A stretch of 29,319 nt of DNA, from IMG/VR virus record IMGVR_UViG_3300013285_000054, positions 1 through 29,319 of that record; one strand, given 5' to 3'. Below are positions 3,211 to 28,617 of this stretch, piece by piece. The stretch comes from a virus. Position numbers and translations under genes: made by a program. Below the pieces are notes generated by a model. It was not told the DNA's origin and made no database searches. It saw only the letters and a program-made list of their open reading frames with translations. Within the stretch, counting starts at the first letter, position 1, and every line of letters starts with the position of its first letter.

Positions 3211-5214
3211 ATGAATATTATTACTACCACAGAACAGCTACAGGAATTTGTAAAGGCTTATTCCTCAGTAGCTGCATTTGCATTTGACGTGGAAACCATT
3301 GGCGAAGACCGCCTATACCCAATCATCAATGACGTATGTTGGATTTCTTTTGCGACTGAAGGTCGCGTAGACGTAATTCCCATGGGTCACCCCAATGGCT
3401 CCTTTGAGTTTTGGAAGAAGCCCCTCCTACTTTCAGGTCAGCGTAGGCTTGCAGAAGGTAAGCTTCTTACTGACCTCAATTACTCTAAGAATCAGCGTAA
3501 CTGGGAACCTACCTTTGGTGAAGCTCCAGAGCAATTAACACCTGCAGAGGTATTCTCAGCAATTAAACCGATTATGTTTGGCAATGCTTTAAAAATTGGG
3601 CATAATCTTAAGTTTGACCTTAAGTCTGTTGCAAAGTATTTTAAAGGCGTAGTTCCTAAGAAGCCTTACTTCGATACTTTGATGGCGGCATTTATTGTAA
3701 ACAACATGAACAAGAACCAATTGAATTTGGCGGCATGCGTAAAGCGTGAGCTTGGAATTGAAGTAGAAAAAGGTGTAGGAGCTAACGTAGCTGAGCATTC
3801 TTTTGAAGACGTAGCTACTTACTCAGGTATTGACGCTGATGTTACATGGCAGTTATACAAAGCTTTGCTTCCAAAGATTACAGAGAACCTTAAGCGAGTT
3901 TGGCGTCTAGAGATGGACGTACTAGGAGCACTTTGTGATATGGAGCTTGCAGGAGCACCTATTGATGAAGCTCAGCTAGACCGCCTTAATGACCAGATTG
4001 GTAAAGATAAGGTTGCTGCAGAAGGAAACGTATACCGTCTTGCAGGAAAAGCTTTTTCTATCAACTCTGTTCCTGCAAAACAGCAGCTTTTGTTTGAACC
4101 TCAAGAAGATGGCAAAAAGGCTCGTATTAAGCCTAATGTTCGTCTTAAAGCCGCTTTGACTGTCAAAGGTCAGGAGGTCAATCGTTCCGGAGGAGAACTA
4201 ACCTCAGCTCATTTTTCCGTTAGTGCTGAGGCACTGGAATTCTACCGAGGTAAGAATGAGCTTGTAGACGCTCTTTTAGAGTACCAAGACCTTAATAAAC
4301 TCATGACTACCTATGTCACTCCTTACAAAGGAGGAGAAGTTAAGCGAGTAACCAACGGTAAAGAAAAGATTACAGAGCGTAAGAGCCTGCTTATCAATGG
4401 TCGCGTGCATACTAACTTTAAAGCTCATGGAGCTGAAACTGGTCGGTTTTCATCCAGTGAACCCAACTTGCAGAACATCCCATCATCAGGTGACTATGGA
4501 AAGCTCATTCGTAACTTGTTTATTGCTCCTCCAGGTTACAAGCTCATAGTAGCTGACTACTCACAGATTGAGCCTCGGGTTATTGCATCACTATCACGAG
4601 ACCCTATCCTTTTGGATAATTATATGAATGGTGGAGATATTTATACCACCATTGGTGACACGATGGGCGTAGACCGTAAAGCAGGTAAGGTACTTGTTCT
4701 GGCTATTTCCTACGGCGTAGGCCCAGATAAGATTGCTGCGAGTATTGGTTGCTCTGTTACGGAAGCTAAGACACTTTTGCGTGACTTTGAAGAGCAGTTT
4801 TCGTCTATTGCAAAATACAAAGCTAAGATTGTTCGTATGGCAAAACAAAGTGGTGATATTCCTTACGTAGAAACTCTCTTTGGTCGTCGTCGTTACATCC
4901 CCGATTTGCTGAGCAGAGAACAGGGACTACTATCTCGTGCAGAGCGTCAAGCATTTAATACCGTAATTCAGGGGTCAGCCGCTGACATCATGAAGCTTGC
5001 AATCGTTCGTGCACATTCCTGCTTTGTTGATGAACCAACTATCAACGTTTTGTTGACAGTTCACGATGAGCTTGTTACTGTTTGTCCAGAAGACCGTGCA
5101 GAAGAAGTATCCGAAGCAATCCGAGCCTCTATGGAAGGTATCAAGATGAAAGAGATTACTGTACCCCTTATTGCTGAGTTGTACACTGTGGATAAATGGG
5201 GTGAAGCAAAGTGA
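3211..5214 (+). CDS. polA: Family A DNA polymerase with 3'-5' exonuclease
   Basis: 667 residues. ATG 3211 is chosen because GAGGA (3201-3205) sits 5 bases upstream; an in-frame GTG at 3196 is less well placed. The protein replicates DNA with proofreading and lacks the 5'-nuclease domain of bacterial Pol I, as is common in phages. The exonuclease is intact: ExoI D26/E28 (FDVET), ExoII D136 (GHNLKFDLK) and ExoIII Y204/D208 (YSGIDAD). Polymerase motif A is ADYSQIEPR (D449), motif B is RKAGKVLVLAISYG, and motif C is VHDE (H618-E620). In motif B the position of E. coli Phe762 is Leu497. This residue affects ribose discrimination and fidelity in the family. The stop overlaps the next start (GTGA). 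Confidence 0.97.
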   Translation: MNIITTTEQLQEFVKAYSSVAAFAFDVETIGEDRLYPIINDVCWISFATEGRVDVIPMGHPNGSFEFWKKPLLLSGQRRLAEGKLLTDLNYSKNQRNWEPTFGEAPEQLTPAEVFSAIKPIMFGNALKIGHNLKFDLKSVAKYFKGVVPKKPYFDTLMAAFIVNNMNKNQLNLAACVKRELGIEVEKGVGANVAEHSFEDVATYSGIDADVTWQLYKALLPKITENLKRVWRLEMDVLGALCDMELAGAPIDEAQLDRLNDQIGKDKVAAEGNVYRLAGKAFSINSVPAKQQLLFEPQEDGKKARIKPNVRLKAALTVKGQEVNRSGGELTSAHFSVSAEALEFYRGKNELVDALLEYQDLNKLMTTYVTPYKGGEVKRVTNGKEKITERKSLLINGRVHTNFKAHGAETGRFSSSEPNLQNIPSSGDYGKLIRNLFIAPPGYKLIVADYSQIEPRVIASLSRDPILLDNYMNGGDIYTTIGDTMGVDRKAGKVLVLAISYGVGPDKIAASIGCSVTEAKTLLRDFEEQFSSIAKYKAKIVRMAKQSGDIPYVETLFGRRRYIPDLLSREQGLLSRAERQAFNTVIQGSAADIMKLAIVRAHSCFVDEPTINVLLTVHDELVTVCPEDRAEEVSEAIRASMEGIKMKEITVPLIAELYTVDKWGEAK

Positions 5215-5624
5215 TTTTTCGCAAAAGAAAGCGTACACATCTTTTTGTGTCTGATATGACCAGTCGAATTAGGGGGTACCTACTTGATTCACAAGTAAGT
5301 GACGCTCATCACATTAGCCTTTTAATGGGGTGCTCAATGCTCAGTGAAGAACTCGTTGACAAAGAAGAGGAGGAGAGTGATGCCCGAGTTTCTGAAGTGG
5401 ACCACTTAATTCCTATTATGTATGCCTATGCTCATGCAATGGCTGAGGGACTAGTTTCTCATCAAAGGGAGCACCTTACTGATGAAGAACAAGAGGGCAT
5501 TCCTAGTCAAGCGTGGCATGCCACGCAGAAAGTATTCACACAAGTTGCAATGAATTCTTTGCTTGGAACTGTTTCCCAGCTTGTAGACATGGGAATGTTA
5601 ACTGTACCTAGGAGAAAAAAATGA
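5211..5624 (+). CDS. Hypothetical protein (137 aa)
   Basis: GTG start overlapping the polymerase stop by 4 bases (GTGA), so translation is probably coupled. The N-terminus is strongly basic (FRKRKRTH). The rest is predicted mainly helical, with an acidic patch (DKEEEESDAR, about residues 50-60) and a hydrophobic C-terminal helix before a basic PRRKK tail. No known domain is recognised. The tight junctions on both sides support expression with polA. Confidence 0.7.
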   Translation: MIFRKRKRTHLFVSDMTSRIRGYLLDSQVSDAHHISLLMGCSMLSEELVDKEEEESDARVSEVDHLIPIMYAYAHAMAEGLVSHQREHLTDEEQEGIPSQAWHATQKVFTQVAMNSLLGTVSQLVDMGMLTVPRRKK

Positions 5625-5848
5625 ATGACCCCGTAACTTATCCAGCTCACTACACTAGATTTCCTGTTGAAGTAATCGAGCTTACCGAGCACCTTAACTT
5701 TTGTCGGGGCAATGCTGTGAAGTACATTGCTCGCGCAGGAGCCAAAGACCCTCTTAAAGAGGTTGAAGACTTGGAAAAAGCAGTTTGGTATATTCAACGA
5801 GAAATTAGCCGAATGAAATCTGCTACAAACTCTGGGTCATTACAATGA
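5621..5848 (+). CDS. DUF3310 family protein (75 aa)
   Basis: The sequence HYTRFPVEVIELTEHL, then FCRGNAVKYIARAG, then EDLEKAVWYIQREI is the diagnostic pattern of DUF3310, a small helical family widespread in phages and sometimes labelled SaV-like or nucleotide kinase-like. Biochemical function is not established. Phage members usually sit among replication genes, as here. Both ends overlap neighbours by 4 bases (ATGA). The length is typical of the family core. Confidence 0.85.
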   Translation: MNDPVTYPAHYTRFPVEVIELTEHLNFCRGNAVKYIARAGAKDPLKEVEDLEKAVWYIQREISRMKSATNSGSLQ

Positions 5849-6105
5849 GTATAGAACAATTACTGGAGCAAGCAATTGACTTGTTACATACTCGCCACTA
5901 CCCCTTGAAACTTCGTTTTCAACAAGGAGTTTGGCTATCTCCTACTGAAAAGTTTGCTTACGATATGATTCCACCTGTTGAAGCTTTTTTAAGGTCTGCT
6001 TATGCTGCTTTTCATAACGAGCATTGGGACTTTGATGATGATTTTGAACTTCTCTACAAGAAAGAAATGACTTTGGCGCGTGCAATTGTAAAGAACCACT
6101 CATGA
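5845..6105 (+). CDS. Hypothetical protein (86 aa)
   Basis: Starts at an ATGA overlap with the DUF3310 gene and ends in another with the next gene. It is predicted helical, with an aromatic and acidic central segment (NEHWDFDDDFELLY, about residues 58-71). No domain is recognised. It is a small cytoplasmic protein of the replication-block operon. Confidence 0.65.
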   Translation: MSIEQLLEQAIDLLHTRHYPLKLRFQQGVWLSPTEKFAYDMIPPVEAFLRSAYAAFHNEHWDFDDDFELLYKKEMTLARAIVKNHS

Positions 6106-6341
6106 ACGACGGCGAACAAATTGAGTATGCTATTGCCAAACTAGAGGAAATGAATAACCACCATCCTTCTATGGTCTTGTTCTCTGAAGCAAAACTTCTT
6201 TATAAAACACTTCCTATCCTTATTCAGTTGCTTACCCTTGCGGGTCAGAACTGGGATGAAAGATGGCCCGATGATTTTGCTGAAACTTATACGGAGTGGA
6301 TAGAGTTGGCTAAAGTAATAAACGAAGAGAAGGAATTATGA
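6102..6341 (+). CDS. Hypothetical protein (79 aa)
   Basis: Starts at ATGA and overlaps the following small gene by ATGA. It is an acidic, helical protein with a leucine-rich middle (LLYKTLPILIQLLTLAG, residues about 32-48). That stretch is amphipathic rather than clearly transmembrane, because it is preceded by Lys and followed by a charged, Trp-rich segment. No family is recognised. Confidence 0.6.
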   Translation: MNDGEQIEYAIAKLEEMNNHHPSMVLFSEAKLLYKTLPILIQLLTLAGQNWDERWPDDFAETYTEWIELAKVINEEKEL

Positions 6342-6454
6342 CAATTGAAGAGATTGCTCAGTTTTTTGAAGAACATGGGCATAAGCCAACTTTGGCAGAT
6401 ATGCATGAATGGCGACTAACGCACCCGCTATACCCAGGTAAGGAAACTTCATGA
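6338..6454 (+). CDS. Small ORF (38 aa) bridging two genes
   Basis: ATG 6338 overlaps the previous stop by ATGA, with AAGGAAT upstream as a ribosome site. It ends TGA at 6454, overlapping the next ATG (6451). It encodes 38 residues starting MTIEEIAQFFEEHGHKP and ending YPGKETS. The N-terminal pattern looks like a short helix-turn-helix-like peptide, but it is too short to assign. It fills what would otherwise be a 109-base gap with tight junctions at both ends, which is the main argument that it is real. Confidence 0.6.
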   Translation: MTIEEIAQFFEEHGHKPTLADMHEWRLTHPLYPGKETS

Positions 6455-6831
6455 GTACGGCTGATTGGTGGGCAGCAAAGCTTGCCGCAACTAATCCCGC
6501 TCCTGTAGAGGCATCAAGGACGACTAATATGCCTTCTATGCCGCCTTCTCAGCAAGCAATGCCACTTATGCCATCTTTTCAGCCACAGCCCTCAGAGAGG
6601 GCACAGAGCGCCAATCAGACAGCTAATTGTCCTGATTGTGGCTCAACTAACTACATGGCAGTACAAAATGCTGCTCCTCGGTGTTTTGACTGCGGCTATC
6701 CACTAGAGCAATCAGGTAGTCGTTATGGTTCTCTAACAGGAGCCAAAATAGAGGGTAACGCACGCGCATCTGCTGGAAACGACATCGTTAGTAACTGGAA
6801 CCCTCAAGGAATTATTGGAAGGATTAATTAA
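6451..6831 (+). CDS. Zinc-ribbon protein with disordered N-terminus (126 aa)
   Basis: The N-terminus starts with STADWWAAKLA. It is followed by a Pro/Met/Gln-rich, probably disordered linker (residues 15-55). A zinc ribbon follows: NCPDCG, about 14 residues, then RCFDCGYPL (C-x2-C and C-x2-C). The C-terminal tail is Gly/Asn-rich. Zinc ribbons of this kind usually mediate nucleic-acid or protein contacts. The stop overlaps the RecA-like gene start by one base, so a partner role with that recombinase is possible but is inference. Confidence 0.65.
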   Translation: MSTADWWAAKLAATNPAPVEASRTTNMPSMPPSQQAMPLMPSFQPQPSERAQSANQTANCPDCGSTNYMAVQNAAPRCFDCGYPLEQSGSRYGSLTGAKIEGNARASAGNDIVSNWNPQGIIGRIN

Positions 6832-18660: not shown

Positions 18661-20187
18661 ATGCTAATTTTTGGTGGAGTAGAGATACCCAGTAATAGGA
18701 CGTTATTAGAGCGTAACGGAGTCAAGAATGTTATGTTGAATTACTGGGGACTTCGCAAACGCGGAATGCCAAAAACTAAATCTTATTACATCAGCGAGTA
18801 CTTTCAAGAAGATATGAAAGTGTGGGTAGACTCTGGAGCTATACAAGCCGATAAAGCTAGCTTAAGTCAAAGAGAACTAGAAGAGTATGCCGCTGATTAT
18901 GAAGAGTTTGTAGCTATAAATTATGACCGTATTGAAGGGTGGGTAGAGTTTGATAGCCAAAGTTTTGGACTTCCTAAGATTCAGCAGAATAGAGCAGCGT
19001 TTGAAAACGACCCAAAAATGTGGGTGGTTTGGCATGAGGCATACGGAACAATGGTCTTACAGCGTTGGGCTTCCGAATATCAAAACATCGCGGTTCCGTC
19101 GGAAGCCATCGAATCCGTTGTATCCCTATCAGGGATTACCCGAGGATTAGCCACAAAGTACGACGTCCGCTTTCACGCCCTTGCTACGGCTAAGCCGGAT
19201 AACCTTCGACAGATTCCTTTTAGCTCTGCTAGTACGCTCTCCTGGCTTTCTCCAATGCGTCGTGGAGAGACTATTGTATGGGATGGCACAAAGCTCGTCC
19301 GTTACCCCAAAAAGATGAAGGCACAGGCTCGCATCAGGTATAAATCTGTTGTAGAAAAGGCTGGCTTAGATTTCGATAAGTTCACCTCCGATGACACATT
19401 AGAGGCTACAAAAGTCGCTATATGGTCTTATTTACAGTTAGAAGCACTCATGGATAACGATAAACCAAAGCTTTCCGCCATTAAAGGAGGTCGAAAGACG
19501 CCTGAAAATGCTTTCCTATCTGATAACAGTGATGATACCCTATACACCGGTTTGATGGATTACCTAGGGGGTGCTTCTGATAACAAGGGTCAGGAGATGC
19601 GGAAAGTTGAAGCTACAGAAGTAATAAAACGAGATGCTAATGACGTTCAAAATTTGCCTGTATTTGGGTATCAGATGAAGAACATTGTTGATACTGATGA
19701 GGACGGTAAAGATGTCCTTCGACAGGTTGCAGTTACTCAGTCTACAGGTACTTCTTTACGTCAATGCAATACCTGTTTTGTGGCTGCAAACTGCCCCGCT
19801 TTCAAGCCTGATAATGAGTGTGCTTTTAATCTTCCAGTAGAGGTAAAGACCCCAGAACAATTAAAAGGACTACTCACTTCCGTAGTGGAGATGCAGGCTT
19901 CTCGCGTAGCGTTTATGCGGTATGCAGAGGAACTAAACTCAGGATATGTTGACCCAAATACTAGTCAAGAGATTGACCGGTTGTTTAAATTGGTAGCTAA
20001 TATCCGTGACTTGGAAAGTAGTAAAGAATCAATAAACATTAATGTTGAAAGACGAGCTTCTGGTGGCGTTCTTTCAGCTATCTTTGGTGACCGTGTGCAA
20101 GCTATGCAAGAGACATCTTTGCCTCTTCAGCCGATGATGTCAGAAGACCAAACAACCATGATTATTCGACAAAGTATTGAAGACTAG
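18661..20187 (+). CDS. TGT/DpdA-like TIM-barrel protein with Cys4 site
   Basis: 508 residues, starting 2 bases after the HAD-like stop. The first 215 residues resemble the TIM barrel of tRNA-guanine transglycosylase and the phage DpdA family (7-deazaguanine insertion): VWVDSGA (D57), GWVEFDSQ (D98), VWHEAYG, RFHALATAKPD, PFSSASTLSW and RGETIVWDG. Where many DpdA-like proteins have SxDSTxW I read SSASTLSW, so one catalytic Asp may be missing. A middle linker precedes C369-x2-C372-x5-C378-x8-C387, probably a zinc site, then a helical, charged tail. The similarity is by pattern; no queuosine-pathway genes are in this window. It ends before the bidirectional terminator. Confidence 0.5.
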   Translation: MLIFGGVEIPSNRTLLERNGVKNVMLNYWGLRKRGMPKTKSYYISEYFQEDMKVWVDSGAIQADKASLSQRELEEYAADYEEFVAINYDRIEGWVEFDSQSFGLPKIQQNRAAFENDPKMWVVWHEAYGTMVLQRWASEYQNIAVPSEAIESVVSLSGITRGLATKYDVRFHALATAKPDNLRQIPFSSASTLSWLSPMRRGETIVWDGTKLVRYPKKMKAQARIRYKSVVEKAGLDFDKFTSDDTLEATKVAIWSYLQLEALMDNDKPKLSAIKGGRKTPENAFLSDNSDDTLYTGLMDYLGGASDNKGQEMRKVEATEVIKRDANDVQNLPVFGYQMKNIVDTDEDGKDVLRQVAVTQSTGTSLRQCNTCFVAANCPAFKPDNECAFNLPVEVKTPEQLKGLLTSVVEMQASRVAFMRYAEELNSGYVDPNTSQEIDRLFKLVANIRDLESSKESININVERRASGGVLSAIFGDRVQAMQETSLPLQPMMSEDQTTMIIRQSIED

Positions 20188-20254: not shown

Positions 20255-20289
20255 AATAGCCCCTCTACCAAAACGGTAGAGGGGCTATT
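20255..20289. terminator. Perfect 15-bp bidirectional terminator
   Basis: AATAGCCCCTCTACC (20255-20269) pairs perfectly with 20275-20289 around a 5-base AAAAC loop. It lies between the convergent + and - blocks. On the minus strand the stem is followed by TTTTTGTTT, and on the plus strand by GCTTTTG, so it works best for leftward genes. The rest of 20188-20254 shows no gene. Confidence 0.9.
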
Positions 20290-24177: not shown

Positions 24178-24795
24178 TTAGTTGTTTGCTTCTCGGGCTT
24201 CGTAGAGCTTTTCCAGCAGACGCTGGTAGTCGGCTACCGTAAGGGTCACATTTCCGACAATCTTGGGAGTGTATTTGGTGAAATCTGTATCCCAGACTCC
24301 CTCATGACTGAGGTAGGCAGTAACGCGCACGTCAGGCCCAAGAATCTTTGCAGTCGATGACTTCAAGTTAGCCTCAATGGTAGGAATGGTGGCTCGTATT
24401 GTGGCATCTTGCTCTGCACGTATTGCGCTTCTACGGCTAGCCTCTGCCGCTTCTAACTCTTTTTTTAGAGCTTTCGCGTCCCATTCATCAACGCATACAT
24501 CCCATGCTCCGAGGAACTCGGACGCCGATAGAATGTACATATTTCCAGAAGTAGAGTCTTTTACCAAGAACCCTTTAGAACGCTCTGTGCTTGGGGCTAA
24601 GCTGTGATACAAGGGGTCGTACTCTGGCCTGATGTAAGACGCTTTGTGGTAATACCGAGTGTCGTACAACTTGACGCGTAATGTCTTTTCTCGCGGAACA
24701 TCATTCGCTTTTCGGTCAGACCGAGGCGCAGAGCGACTGGGGTTGACTACTGCCCACTCAATGGTGGGGTCTTTGAGAATATCTGCAGATTTCAT
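24178..24795 (-). CDS. Hypothetical protein with coiled-coil segment (205 aa)
   Basis: ATG 24795 with AAGGAG upstream. Residues about 105-140 (DAKALKKELEAAEASRRSA and onward) form a likely coiled coil. The N-terminal half is basic and Tyr-rich, and the C-terminal part has TLTVADYQRLLEKLYE. No family is recognised. It lies next to the VWA gene, so it may be its partner, which is inference. Confidence 0.65.
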   Translation of the reverse strand: MKSADILKDPTIEWAVVNPSRSAPRSDRKANDVPREKTLRVKLYDTRYYHKASYIRPEYDPLYHSLAPSTERSKGFLVKDSTSGNMYILSASEFLGAWDVCVDEWDAKALKKELEAAEASRRSAIRAEQDATIRATIPTIEANLKSSTAKILGPDVRVTAYLSHEGVWDTDFTKYTPKIVGNVTLTVADYQRLLEKLYEAREANN

Positions 24796-24818: not shown

Positions 24819-26870
24819 TTAGTATAGTGCGAGGTTGCGATGGGTAGCAACTTTGACTAGTTGACGACCCAGTATGAACAGGTCGGAGGGGTTAGTAATG
24901 CGTGCGACTACCTCACTCTCATGAGGGTCAATAGGCGAGGAGTATTCGCTGTACTTAGAGGCGGTAACATACGCCAAAGCAGTAAGCACTCCTGCGTAAC
25001 GAAGCTCTCTAATGAGTTTCTCTGATGGCTCTGGGTTACTCCAAGCCCCATCGGTGACTGTAAACAAGATTTTGACAGACCGCGCACTTTGAGCAAGGAC
25101 TCGTGTAGCGTATAACAGCGCATCCTGCGGGTTTGTACCGCCTTTGGGAGTTACGCGCCGCACAGTAGAATCTGCACGTTCCTCAGCCTTGTACAGGATA
25201 CGAGTAGAGGTTCCATATCCTCCGTGGAAAGTAACCACAGTACAAGATGCTCCAATTTTATCCAGTGCTCGCTTCAATCCCCACATGGCTCCAGAAGCCC
25301 TCTGTTCACTCTCTCCCGTCATGGAAGAGGAAGAGTCAAGCAGGATGACTGCTTCAATATCTACAGCATCGTCACGCCCTAGTGACCAACGGTCGAAAGA
25401 CTCTTCGAGCTTGGCTCCACGAAGATAGCGAGAAACGTTGATACGACCGCTAGATACTGCCCTGTCCCATCCGGGGTCGAACTGAGACCGTAAACGTTCC
25501 AGTTCCAATCCGAAAGATTTGGAAGACTGAGCTACGAGTGGGTCAACAGTTCCAGCTTCCCATTCCGCCTTTTCAGGAGTGAGGGAATTATTGCCGCGAA
25601 GCTCTGCATCGCCATTGAACTTAGCAATATCTCGCTCAATGTCGTCAGTCAACTCTTGGATGACCTCATCCAAGATTTCGTTGAGCAAGTCAGCCAAGTT
25701 ACCGTTATCGGTTTCTGCTCCATTGGCTAGCTCTTTGGGTTTATTGGAATCTACGTTAGGTTCAGTGACATCCGACTTCGAGTCAGTGTCAACTTCAGTA
25801 CCGACTACATCTTCTTCTCCCTCTCCATCTTCATCATAAGAAGCGCCGTCACTGTCGCCATAATTTTTACCTTCACCATTGCTCTCGCCCTCACCTTCAA
25901 GTTCACCATCGGCGTCAGGCTGTGCATTTATTTCAGACTCCTCGTTTCCCTCTTCACTGCCAGCTTCGTCGCCATCTTCATCAGAGATAACAGAGTCGGA
26001 GCCCTCACCTTCGTCGGACTCTTCCGTGGAATCATTAGCAGGGTTACCGAAGTCGAATGATTCGTCGTCTGCTTCTTCCGACTCATCTTCTTCATCCCGC
26101 TTTTGAGCCTTGTTCTTGGCTCGTTCCTGCTCCTTCTTGGGAAGAGGTCGGCTGTCTCCAATGCTCTCGTAAACATCGGGAGAGCGCCCAGTACATCCGC
26201 CCTCGGGAGGAAAGTCTTTGACTAGCTCTGCATAGCGCAGGATGAGCGGCTGTGCCTTCTCGGTATCGGCTGGGAATACCAGAAGACGGTACTCGTCAAT
26301 GACTTGAGACAACTCTGCGACCTTATCCTGTGCAGGGTAAAGCTCACGCACTGCCTTTCGCAATTCCACAGGAAGATATTTGCGCCCACGAATCAGTGGG
26401 AAGGATTGTTCCATGTGTTCTTTATCCTGAACGAGGTGCTGTGCTATGACTGCTGTCAACCACGGCACGACAGGCTCACCAAAGCGGCCAACCATGAGGG
26501 TTTCAATGCGCTGGTCTTCTAGAGCGTTGAAAGCTCGTGACAATCCGGGGGTAGCTAAGACCCACTGCACAATGTCGGAGCCAGAACGAGGGGTGAACAG
26601 GATGTGGCTGACCTCGTGAAGGCTGAGTCCCTTGGAGCCGATGACGCCCTGAACCGTTGTGAGGTCAGCAAGGTCAGCTTCGCAGAACGTGATTGTGTTG
26701 CTGGTACTCCATGCTGGAGCTACACCCTCAGCTATGAGTTGAGTACGTACTTCTCGCTGGCATAGCACCGAGGCAAACTTAGCCACGACCTGAGTCATTC
26801 TCACTGCACGGTCGTGCTGTTGCTTGGCGGCACGAGCCGCTGATGCTCCTGCTGTGTATGTGATGGACAT
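24819..26870 (-). CDS. CobT-like VWA protein with HExxH motif
   Basis: 683 residues from ATG 26870 (AGGAGGAG upstream). The N-terminal part has GLSLHEVSHILF (H85, E86, H89), an HExxH metal motif like that of VWA-associated peptidase-like proteins. An acidic, Ser/Gly/Glu-rich linker spans about 255-375. The C-terminal VWA domain has the MIDAS residues D512-x-S514-x-S516 (LLDSSSSM), GGTNPQDAL (T579) and VTDGAW (D607). CobT/ChlD-type VWA proteins work with MoxR-like ATPases in metal chelation or protein remodelling. The ATPase gene lies directly upstream. Function in phage is unknown; whether the HExxH is catalytic is not shown. Confidence 0.85.
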   Translation of the reverse strand: MSITYTAGASAARAAKQQHDRAVRMTQVVAKFASVLCQREVRTQLIAEGVAPAWSTSNTITFCEADLADLTTVQGVIGSKGLSLHEVSHILFTPRSGSDIVQWVLATPGLSRAFNALEDQRIETLMVGRFGEPVVPWLTAVIAQHLVQDKEHMEQSFPLIRGRKYLPVELRKAVRELYPAQDKVAELSQVIDEYRLLVFPADTEKAQPLILRYAELVKDFPPEGGCTGRSPDVYESIGDSRPLPKKEQERAKNKAQKRDEEDESEEADDESFDFGNPANDSTEESDEGEGSDSVISDEDGDEAGSEEGNEESEINAQPDADGELEGEGESNGEGKNYGDSDGASYDEDGEGEEDVVGTEVDTDSKSDVTEPNVDSNKPKELANGAETDNGNLADLLNEILDEVIQELTDDIERDIAKFNGDAELRGNNSLTPEKAEWEAGTVDPLVAQSSKSFGLELERLRSQFDPGWDRAVSSGRINVSRYLRGAKLEESFDRWSLGRDDAVDIEAVILLDSSSSMTGESEQRASGAMWGLKRALDKIGASCTVVTFHGGYGTSTRILYKAEERADSTVRRVTPKGGTNPQDALLYATRVLAQSARSVKILFTVTDGAWSNPEPSEKLIRELRYAGVLTALAYVTASKYSEYSSPIDPHESEVVARITNPSDLFILGRQLVKVATHRNLALY

Positions 26871-26923
26871 GGCTCCTCCTACAGGCTCCGTGAAAGTTGA
26901 TTAGGGTAGCTGAGAGCCACGGC

Positions 26924-28273
26924 TTACGCCGTGACCCCCAACTCGGTAGAGATTAGCTCAGAGTGAACCTCGAACAGCATCCGCAATGCGTCGCGCTCCT
27001 CTGTGGGGAACGCTTTGATGAATGAATCCACCGCGAAGGTGTAGTCCAAACCATGTGCGCTAGAAACGAAGTCCTGAAGCAGTCGAGTAGAAATTGGTGT
27101 TGACCAGCGGTCTTCACGTTCCGCGTCATCCCGTAGGCTCTGCGCGAAGGTGAGTAGCGTTGGCGATGGAATGAAGTTCTTCTCGATTTCGATATCGTAC
27201 TCAAACTCCAGCTTGATACGAAGACGGTCAAGAAACGCTTGGTCGGACTGTACCGTGCCACGATAACCGGGGTTTGCGTCAGCAATGATGAGGCACTCAG
27301 GGTGAACCTTGATGACCTCGTTCTTGTGTCGAGATACTTGCAACTCACGCTCTTCCATAATGCCGAGGAACAGCGAGTTTGCTTTGGCTCCCATTCGGTT
27401 GCTCTCATTCAGCAGGATGACCGATGGAACAGACAACGCCTTTGCCAGCGCCGAGTAGCGCCAGACAAGCTGGTTGCCCACACCGCTGGGCATGTACTGC
27501 CCTTGCACCACCTCTTCGTCAACCTGGGGGTTGCACTCGAAGCGCACGAATGGCAAGCCACGAAGCGCCGCATAGTTCTTGGCGCTTGATGTCTTACCCG
27601 TTCCAGCATGACCGTACACACCCACAGCAACTCCCTCTGACCGAGCAAAGTCGTACACATCCGCCTCGGTCTTTCCTCCGGGGAAGGTTCGCATGTAGTA
27701 GTGCTTCATCTCCGATAGCATCGGGATGCTGAGTTGAGGCCACAGCCCATCGGGGATATCAATAGGGGTCACAGTAGGTTCGGCTTCCAACACGGGCAAT
27801 GGCTCAGGCTCGGGCTGGCTGAAACTTACTGGCTGGGGAAGAATCGTCACGACTGGGACATCCACGTAGGTGGGCACGCCAGCGATGTACTGTGCCAAGC
27901 TCCCAGCGTCATCGTAAGCCTCCTGCTTGATACGAGATAGCGCTTCACCAAAAGACTGGTTGCGAAGAGTTGTGATGCCCTCTACCCGCCGCGCCAGCTT
28001 TTGAAAGAGTCGAGAAGGCCAAGCCTCTTCGATATCAACGAGGTCTTTGTCGGTCAGGGGAAGGCTGACAGGCGTTCCGACGACCTTCTCTCCGGAAAAC
28101 AAGTGTGGCTCCTGCTCTTTCCATGCTCCACCTTTACCTCTGGTAGCAGAGCCTCGTGCGTAGGTCTTGACTTCGTTATTGGTGGGCACAACGACTGTCT
28201 GCCGTATAGGGCCAATCCTAGGCTCAATGTCAGTGCCATAATTTACGGCACTCTGAATAATTACTGCGTACAT
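26924..28273 (-). CDS. MoxR/CobS-like AAA+ ATPase
   Basis: 449 residues from ATG 28273, chosen for AAGGAG just upstream; a longer frame to 28312 lacks it. The N-terminal about 190 residues are a Pro-rich, variable region. The AAA+ module has Walker A GHAGTGKT (221-228), Walker B SVILLNESNR with N289-E290 (D replaced by N), sensor 1 around ADANPGYRG (N334) and FLDRLR (R350, arginine-finger region). MoxR/CobS ATPases act with VWA proteins such as the one directly downstream. The 53-base gap and same strand suggest one operon. The Asn at Walker B may still permit ATP hydrolysis through the Glu. Confidence 0.88.
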   Translation of the reverse strand: MYAVIIQSAVNYGTDIEPRIGPIRQTVVVPTNNEVKTYARGSATRGKGGAWKEQEPHLFSGEKVVGTPVSLPLTDKDLVDIEEAWPSRLFQKLARRVEGITTLRNQSFGEALSRIKQEAYDDAGSLAQYIAGVPTYVDVPVVTILPQPVSFSQPEPEPLPVLEAEPTVTPIDIPDGLWPQLSIPMLSEMKHYYMRTFPGGKTEADVYDFARSEGVAVGVYGHAGTGKTSSAKNYAALRGLPFVRFECNPQVDEEVVQGQYMPSGVGNQLVWRYSALAKALSVPSVILLNESNRMGAKANSLFLGIMEERELQVSRHKNEVIKVHPECLIIADANPGYRGTVQSDQAFLDRLRIKLEFEYDIEIEKNFIPSPTLLTFAQSLRDDAEREDRWSTPISTRLLQDFVSSAHGLDYTFAVDSFIKAFPTEERDALRMLFEVHSELISTELGVTA

Positions 28274-28283
28274 GATTGGCTCC

Positions 28284-28454
28284 TTAGCCGTTGTGAATAA
28301 GTCCTTGGTCAATCAAGGCAGTCGCAATGCGACCGTATGAGCCTTGTAGGCTCCACGCGAGGCCTGAGTCCACGAGCCTCTGGAACAACTCGATGGTCTC
28401 ACGCTCGCTCAGTTCGCCCTCCTCGAAGGCAATGATGCTTTCAATCTCGGTCAC
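28284..28454 (-). CDS. Small DUF7417-like protein (56 aa)
   Basis: GTG 28454, inside the 3' end of the upstream gene. VTEIESIIAFEEGELSERET, then IELFQRLVDSGLAWSLQGSYGRIA and LIDQGLI fits a widespread small phage family that I remember as DUF7417. The longer frame upstream is not protein-like. The family pattern is good; the function is unknown. Confidence 0.7.
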   Translation of the reverse strand: MTEIESIIAFEEGELSERETIELFQRLVDSGLAWSLQGSYGRIATALIDQGLIHNG

Positions 28455-28617
28455 TGAGCACCATCTCGATGCAAGGAGCAAGGTCGCTGTAGGCGTTGTC
28501 GATGATGTCGTGAACCATCTGGTCGGTATACAACTTGACCAGTTCGGCATCCGTGCCCTTGGCATCCTCGTCGATGTAGTAGGTGTAGGTCAGGGTTCCC
28601 TGTGCAATGCGTTTCAT
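28441..28617 (-). CDS. Hypothetical protein (58 aa)
   Basis: ATG 28617 with GAGGAAG upstream. It encodes MKRIAQGTLTYTYYIDEDAK, then an acidic helix, and ends CIEMVLSDRD. It overlaps the next gene by 14 bases. The upstream part of the same open frame (to 28704) is a poor protein and belongs to the neighbour in another frame. No family. Confidence 0.65.
   Translation of the reverse strand: MKRIAQGTLTYTYYIDEDAKGTDAELVKLYTDQMVHDIIDNAYSDLAPCIEMVLSDRD

Follow-up and report, generated by a model that had tools for sequence, protein, structure and literature searches.

A strictly conserved HExxH domain in a phage MoxR AAA+/VWA gene pair of the kind annotated as CobS/CobT

In many phage genomes, a gene pair encoding an AAA+ ATPase and a VWA protein is named CobS/CobT or "porphyrin biosynthesis" and is tallied as a vitamin-B12 auxiliary metabolic gene. 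One such pair lies in a 29,319-base (29.3-kb) virus record in IMG/VR, referred to here as the window, and its VWA protein carries an HExxH motif, which raises the question of whether the pair serves cobalamin synthesis or a different process. The annotated neighbours, helicase, DNA polymerase, UvsX-like recombinase, exonuclease and queuine tRNA-ribosyltransferase, are plus-strand genes on the left two thirds of the window, and the minus strand carries most genes in the right third. A near-perfect bidirectional terminator-like stem of 15-16 pairs (20255-20289) sits exactly between the convergent plus- and minus-strand gene blocks; the queuine tRNA-ribosyltransferase homologue (18661-20187; phrog_887, 9e-56) occupies the convergent site at which many relatives have a ribonucleotide reductase.

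The gene for the MoxR-type AAA+ ATPase (26924..28273, minus strand; 449 aa) comes first and is followed, after 53 bases, by the gene for the HExxH-linker-finger-VWA protein (24819..26870, minus strand; 683 aa). Both reading frames lie where the initial annotation had placed them, on one strand and in this order, and every point of its observation that we checked proved correct. Directly upstream of the ATPase gene is a gene for a small DUF7417 protein (28284-28565; Pfam 1.8e-19), while the next gene downstream of the VWA gene encodes a 205-aa product (24178..24795, minus strand). In 50 loci, the VWA gene is directly followed, always on the same strand, by a gene for a homologue of the 205-aa protein, and this protein is a possible third component of the pair's system.

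A single-sequence scan of viral contigs with the VWA protein gave no match, but profile scans did find relatives, in 80 loci via the VWA protein and in 34 via the ATPase. Named relatives are phages of Gordonia (14 records) and Brevibacterium (2 records), with approximately 27-35% identity; a DNA-level search against named phages gave no match. The ATPase gene is immediately upstream of the VWA gene and in the same orientation in 122 of 122 loci, including those found via the ATPase only. Conservation was read from 103 non-redundant viral VWA proteins, 33 of which form a subset picked without any HE-containing pattern, and from 101 ATPases. The pair is real and well conserved and of an uncharacterised kind, with an architecture that is known from jumbo phages (Iyer et al. 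2021, PMC7824862), in line with the earlier remark that such pairs occur in phages. By the published description, the jumbo-phage pair ASV44729.1/ASV44728.2 likewise combines a MoxR AAA+ with an adjacent VWA protein whose N-terminal part is a metallopeptidase domain. Unlike that pair, which has been described only for group 2.2 jumbo phages, the present family occurs in phages, actinophages included, for which the longest contigs are mostly 80-102 kb.

The N-domain of the VWA protein (residues 1-222; 26205..26870, minus strand) appears zincin-like from its AlphaFold2 model and from weak Foldseek matches. It contains HEVSH at residues 85-89, on helix 73-92 (26604..26618, minus strand), where the initial annotation had seen it while leaving its conservation in other phage pairs as the point to settle; H85, E86 and H89 are each invariant, in 103/103 viral homologues. 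A second motif, LEDQRIE (residues 117-123; 26502..26522, minus strand), is carried on helix 111-130, and its L117, E118, R121 and E123 are likewise each present in 103/103, as is R163. Judged from the sequences, LEDQRIE is a candidate to carry a third metal ligand, E118. In the 33 proteins picked without an HE pattern, HExxH, L117/E118/R121/E123, R163 and the MIDAS residues are all invariant. HExxH appears in 0.75% of shuffles of the 683-aa protein, and a chance occurrence of the motif was rejected on the strength of its 103/103 conservation.

AlphaFold2 predicts the N-domain with a mean pLDDT of 94.3 and a pTM of 0.88, as three strands, the HExxH helix and then the helix with LEDQRIE. Small gluzincins show the same order of elements: strands, HExxH helix, second helix. 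Approximately half of the top 50 Foldseek matches of the N-domain, all non-significant, are HExxH+E metallopeptidases (M1 aminopeptidases, abylysin, jannalysin, BT_4244, ArdC and the minigluzincins 4jiu and 4jix), and neither Foldseek nor Pfam gave a significant match of the N-domain to a peptidase. An HExxH motif is able to bind metal without proteolysis; invariance of E86, beyond that of the histidine ligands, points to catalysis.

The N-domain is followed by an acidic disordered linker (residues 258-375; 25746..26099, minus strand), which bears out the roughly 120 residues first estimated: it has 118 residues, 42% D/E and 2.5% K/R, with a pLDDT of about 40. Beyond it lies a VWA "finger" (residues 468-505; 25356..25469, minus strand), predicted as a beta-hairpin with strands 469-472 and 492-494, in which G475 and R481 are found in 103/103 homologues and F492 in 102/103. 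The VWA domain itself (24831..25358, minus strand) matches Pfam VWA_2 at 3.5e-7 and has a complete MIDAS, with D512, S514, S516, T579 and D607 each present in 103/103. In a full-length AlphaFold2 model built with the family alignment (m9293b6cc0265), the VWA domain and the N-domain are confident and the linker is disordered. When this model was compared to the PDB with Foldseek, the five best matches were NorD VWA chains of NorQD complexes (E approximately 1e-6). The NorD alignments span 251-278 columns, versus approximately 190-200 for plain VWA domains, and this greater length fits the presence of the finger in the model.

The ATPase matches Pfam AAA_5 at 9e-12 and PHROG 249, "porphyrin biosynthesis", at 6e-29. 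An alternative upstream TTG at 28312 would give a protein of 462 aa, but the ATG at 28273 (MYAVIIQSAV...) is favoured because homologue L001 begins identically (MYAVIIQSAVN). Walker A is GHAGTGKT (residues 221-228; 27590..27613, minus strand), and Walker B, in VILLNES, has Asn289-Glu290 (27404..27409, minus strand), so that Asn does replace the usual Asp, as first described, with Glu290 present. Lys227, Glu290, sensor-1 Asn334 and the Arg finger, Arg350, are each invariant in 101/101 ATPases. Position 289 is N in 49 of these, D in 37 and G in 15; by clusters at 50% identity, Asn is found in 14/21, Asp in 5 and Gly in 2. Since Asn is the commonest natural state and the catalytic set is invariant, the substitution does not mean a dead enzyme, and we rejected that interpretation.

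We hold with moderate confidence that the pair is a NorQ/NorD-like MoxR AAA+/VWA machine that hands a client to a metallopeptidase domain of the zincin type. Like NorQ/NorD and CbbQ/CbbO, it combines, in adjacent genes, an ATPase of the same AAA+ group with a VWA protein that has a finger and a MIDAS, and the domain order is the same: N-domain, disordered linker, VWA. In the NorQD model, the finger reaches into the pore of a hexameric ATPase, and as ATP is hydrolysed the VWA part turns against the N-domain and pulls on the linker (PMC13036017, PMC9976466). By analogy, the phage ATPase would form a hexameric ring into whose pore the VWA finger would insert, with the MIDAS, and possibly also the N-domain, holding the client. 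Hydrolysis of ATP would then turn the VWA domain with respect to the N-domain, the acidic linker acting as a flexible tether. The N-domain would have a zincin-type metal site with H85, H89 and probably E118 as putative zinc ligands and E86 as the catalytic base, and most likely would cut, or process in a metal-dependent manner, the remodelled client. In the gene neighbourhoods examined, the annotated genes around the pair belong to replication and metabolism; a protein of the host or an early protein of the phage is therefore a likelier client than a virion component.

It is also possible, albeit unlikely, that the pair is a metal-insertion or protein-remodelling chaperone without proteolysis, in which HExxH would bind a metal ion or pass it on to a metalloenzyme of the phage or the host, much as NorQD supplies iron. 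The best fold match, to the NorD VWA, is in keeping with this idea, as is the fact that NorQD, CbbQO and RavA-ViaA remodel or metallate their targets with no known cleavage (PMC13036017, PMC9976466). However, E86 is as invariant as both histidines, and pure metal binding would not call for that. In the published accounts of NorQD, iron is inserted into NO reductase, a target not to be expected in a phage, and no HExxH metallopeptidase domain is described for NorD.

We regard a role in cobalamin supply as improbable, yet that alternative stays alive. The same gene pair in archaeal tailed viruses and cyanophages has been published as CobST, a cobaltochelatase; the authors regard the peptidase label as an error and propose cobalamin supply for the B12-dependent class II ribonucleotide reductase (RNR) as the benefit (PMC8651126). 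In the present case, the pair would replace the missing motor of the host cobaltochelatase (CobN) and thereby raise cobalamin, for example for a phage class II RNR. In support, a full-length profile-profile comparison (hhalign) with cellular CobT gave 97.4% probability and an E of 1.2e-11. The N-domain alone gave a weak P of 1.9e-4 (reversed control, 0.41). Like cellular CobS/CobT, the pair joins an AAA+ to a VWA partner, and the profile match is collinear over the finger, the VWA domain and the E-x-x-R of the N-domain. These alignments show that the protein is truly, if remotely, homologous to cellular CobT over its full length.

The pair nevertheless lies outside the curated CobS/CobT families. 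The NCBIfam CobT model (TIGR01651) does not match the window protein, and CobS is absent among NCBIfam matches of the ATPase up to E 0.1, with GvpN first. Profile matches of the ATPase reach 8e-34 for CbbQ and 1e-31 for NorQ, and CbbQ, NorQ and midasin all score above CobS. Hence, of the initial interpretation, the phage MoxR AAA+/VWA pair with HExxH stands, and the CobS/CobT label is the weaker part, given the unmatched curated models and the closer CbbQ, NorQ and midasin. CobN was not found in 26 pair-bearing phage records, and at the level of sequence the vitamin-B12 enzyme label common in phage databases is unsupported.

Unlike the phage proteins, in which HExxH is intact, 6/6 cellular CobT proteins are without it, having HDAxxH or a further decayed form in place while keeping the E-x-x-R motif. 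The motif is intact in all six distant viral homologues of full length, which come from phages of Rhizobium, Haloarcula, Microcystis, Gordonia (2) and Actinomycetia; several of the six are annotated as CobT or cobalamin biosynthesis. HExxH is present in 44/44 of a broad set that includes cellular copies, and most viral CobT-like proteins checked have an acidic ED/EE motif approximately 25-35 residues after it. A crAss-like cr115 neighbour is short and has no HExxH or MIDAS match, and we left it out of the full-length set. Because cellular CobT is functional without HExxH, chelatase duty would not explain the strict conservation of the motif. The HExxH evidence points in the direction opposite to the published view of the peptidase label (PMC8651126), and where that work has a cobaltochelatase we favour a metallopeptidase-type domain. 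A speculative extension, which we consider doubtful, is that the viral "CobT" class as a whole consists of active metalloproteases driven by an AAA+ partner, comparable to FtsH-type machines but coupled to MoxR, and that cellular CobT lost the active site and became a metal-insertion motor.

The proximity of RNR genes would fit a cobalamin role. An adenosylcobalamin-dependent RNR (TIGR02505) is found in 27/32 environmental pair-bearing contigs, compared to 4/28 unselected contigs of at least 30 kb (Fisher 6e-8 by contig; 11/20 versus 4/28, p 0.004, by cluster at 60% identity). In 26/26 measured environmental relatives (L009, L016, L101 and 23 more) the RNR gene is convergent to the pair and 1.9-10.4 kb downstream. 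Such fixed placement, always convergent at 2-10 kb, suggests that the association owes much to common ancestry, and the contigs are not independent. In addition, none of the 5 Gordonia/Brevibacterium phages encodes the RNR, several environmental contigs, some of them close to the window, keep the pair without it, and of 31 RNR contigs only 9 encode the VWA protein or something distantly related to it. The B12-dependent RNR is absent from the window fragment, and a PF02867 scan of 13 records for a non-RTPR ribonucleotide reductase large subunit was negative. Among relatives of the window polymerase on contigs of at least 79 kb, RNR is encoded by 6/9 that have the pair and by 1/2 that do not, which is uninformative.

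A role as a virion assembly or maturation factor that processes structural proteins has been proposed for the jumbo-phage version, by analogy with a tail-development pair of Acidianus two-tailed virus (PMC7824862), and for the present pair we consider it very improbable. In Gordonia and Brevibacterium phages, the pair is placed between DnaB helicase and SSB or DnaE, and in a Rhizobium phage it adjoins a sigma factor and DnaE. Around it in the window, annotated genes encode a DNA polymerase, a helicase, a recombinase, an exonuclease and an enzyme that modifies tRNA, and no structural gene is among the PHROG matches for 64 neighbours (best 25 of 45 families). The metallopeptidase reading of the domain is supported but the virion-assembly context is not, because these neighbours belong to replication and metabolism. 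An anti-phage defence system was rejected, as PADLOC gave no match.

A comparable design occurs in bacteria. The DUF2201 proteins (PF13203 + PF09967) have an HExxH N-domain, a linker and a VWA domain, and a P-loop ATPase ORF lies beside the gene for DUF2201_N (PF13203, "putative metallopeptidase") in 13/14 bacterial loci; unlike the phage protein, DUF2201 is shorter and its consensus is without LEDxRIE. Homology of the N-domain to DUF2201_N was rejected: the register is right, but the match is not significant (P 0.02-0.07). The Pfam search gave 0 families for the window N-domain, and one of 31 members of its family reached PF13203 at E 0.15. The bacterial DUF2201 loci (L419-L431) seem to represent the HExxH-linker-VWA plus ATPase design in a form that is either independent or very remotely related.

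Copies of the viral family were also observed in cellular contigs. In a Propionibacterium MAG contig (L123:1099-3683), the pair occurs with a shortened linker, and the next ORF looks by eye like a MobF-type relaxase. The same genome has a second copy, and a plasmid search with the Propionibacterium copy found none. Another MAG contig (L122) carries a viral-family copy together with a DnaB-like helicase ORF. Distant HExxH-VWA proteins are encoded in Duodenibacillus and Succinivibrio (L124:18-1121 and 4690-6552; L125:3078-4736), with HEASH and HESAH, each with LEDSRIE, and the Walker B of an AAA+ ORF on the Duodenibacillus contig contains Asn (VLNEVD).

These observations bear on two conflicting published readings of the pair, as a cobaltochelatase (PMC8651126) or as a metallopeptidase-bearing machine (PMC7824862), and the disputed annotation becomes directly testable. 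The strict presence of HExxH in the viral members and its absence in the sampled cellular CobT argue for testing the class first as a protease or remodelling machine.
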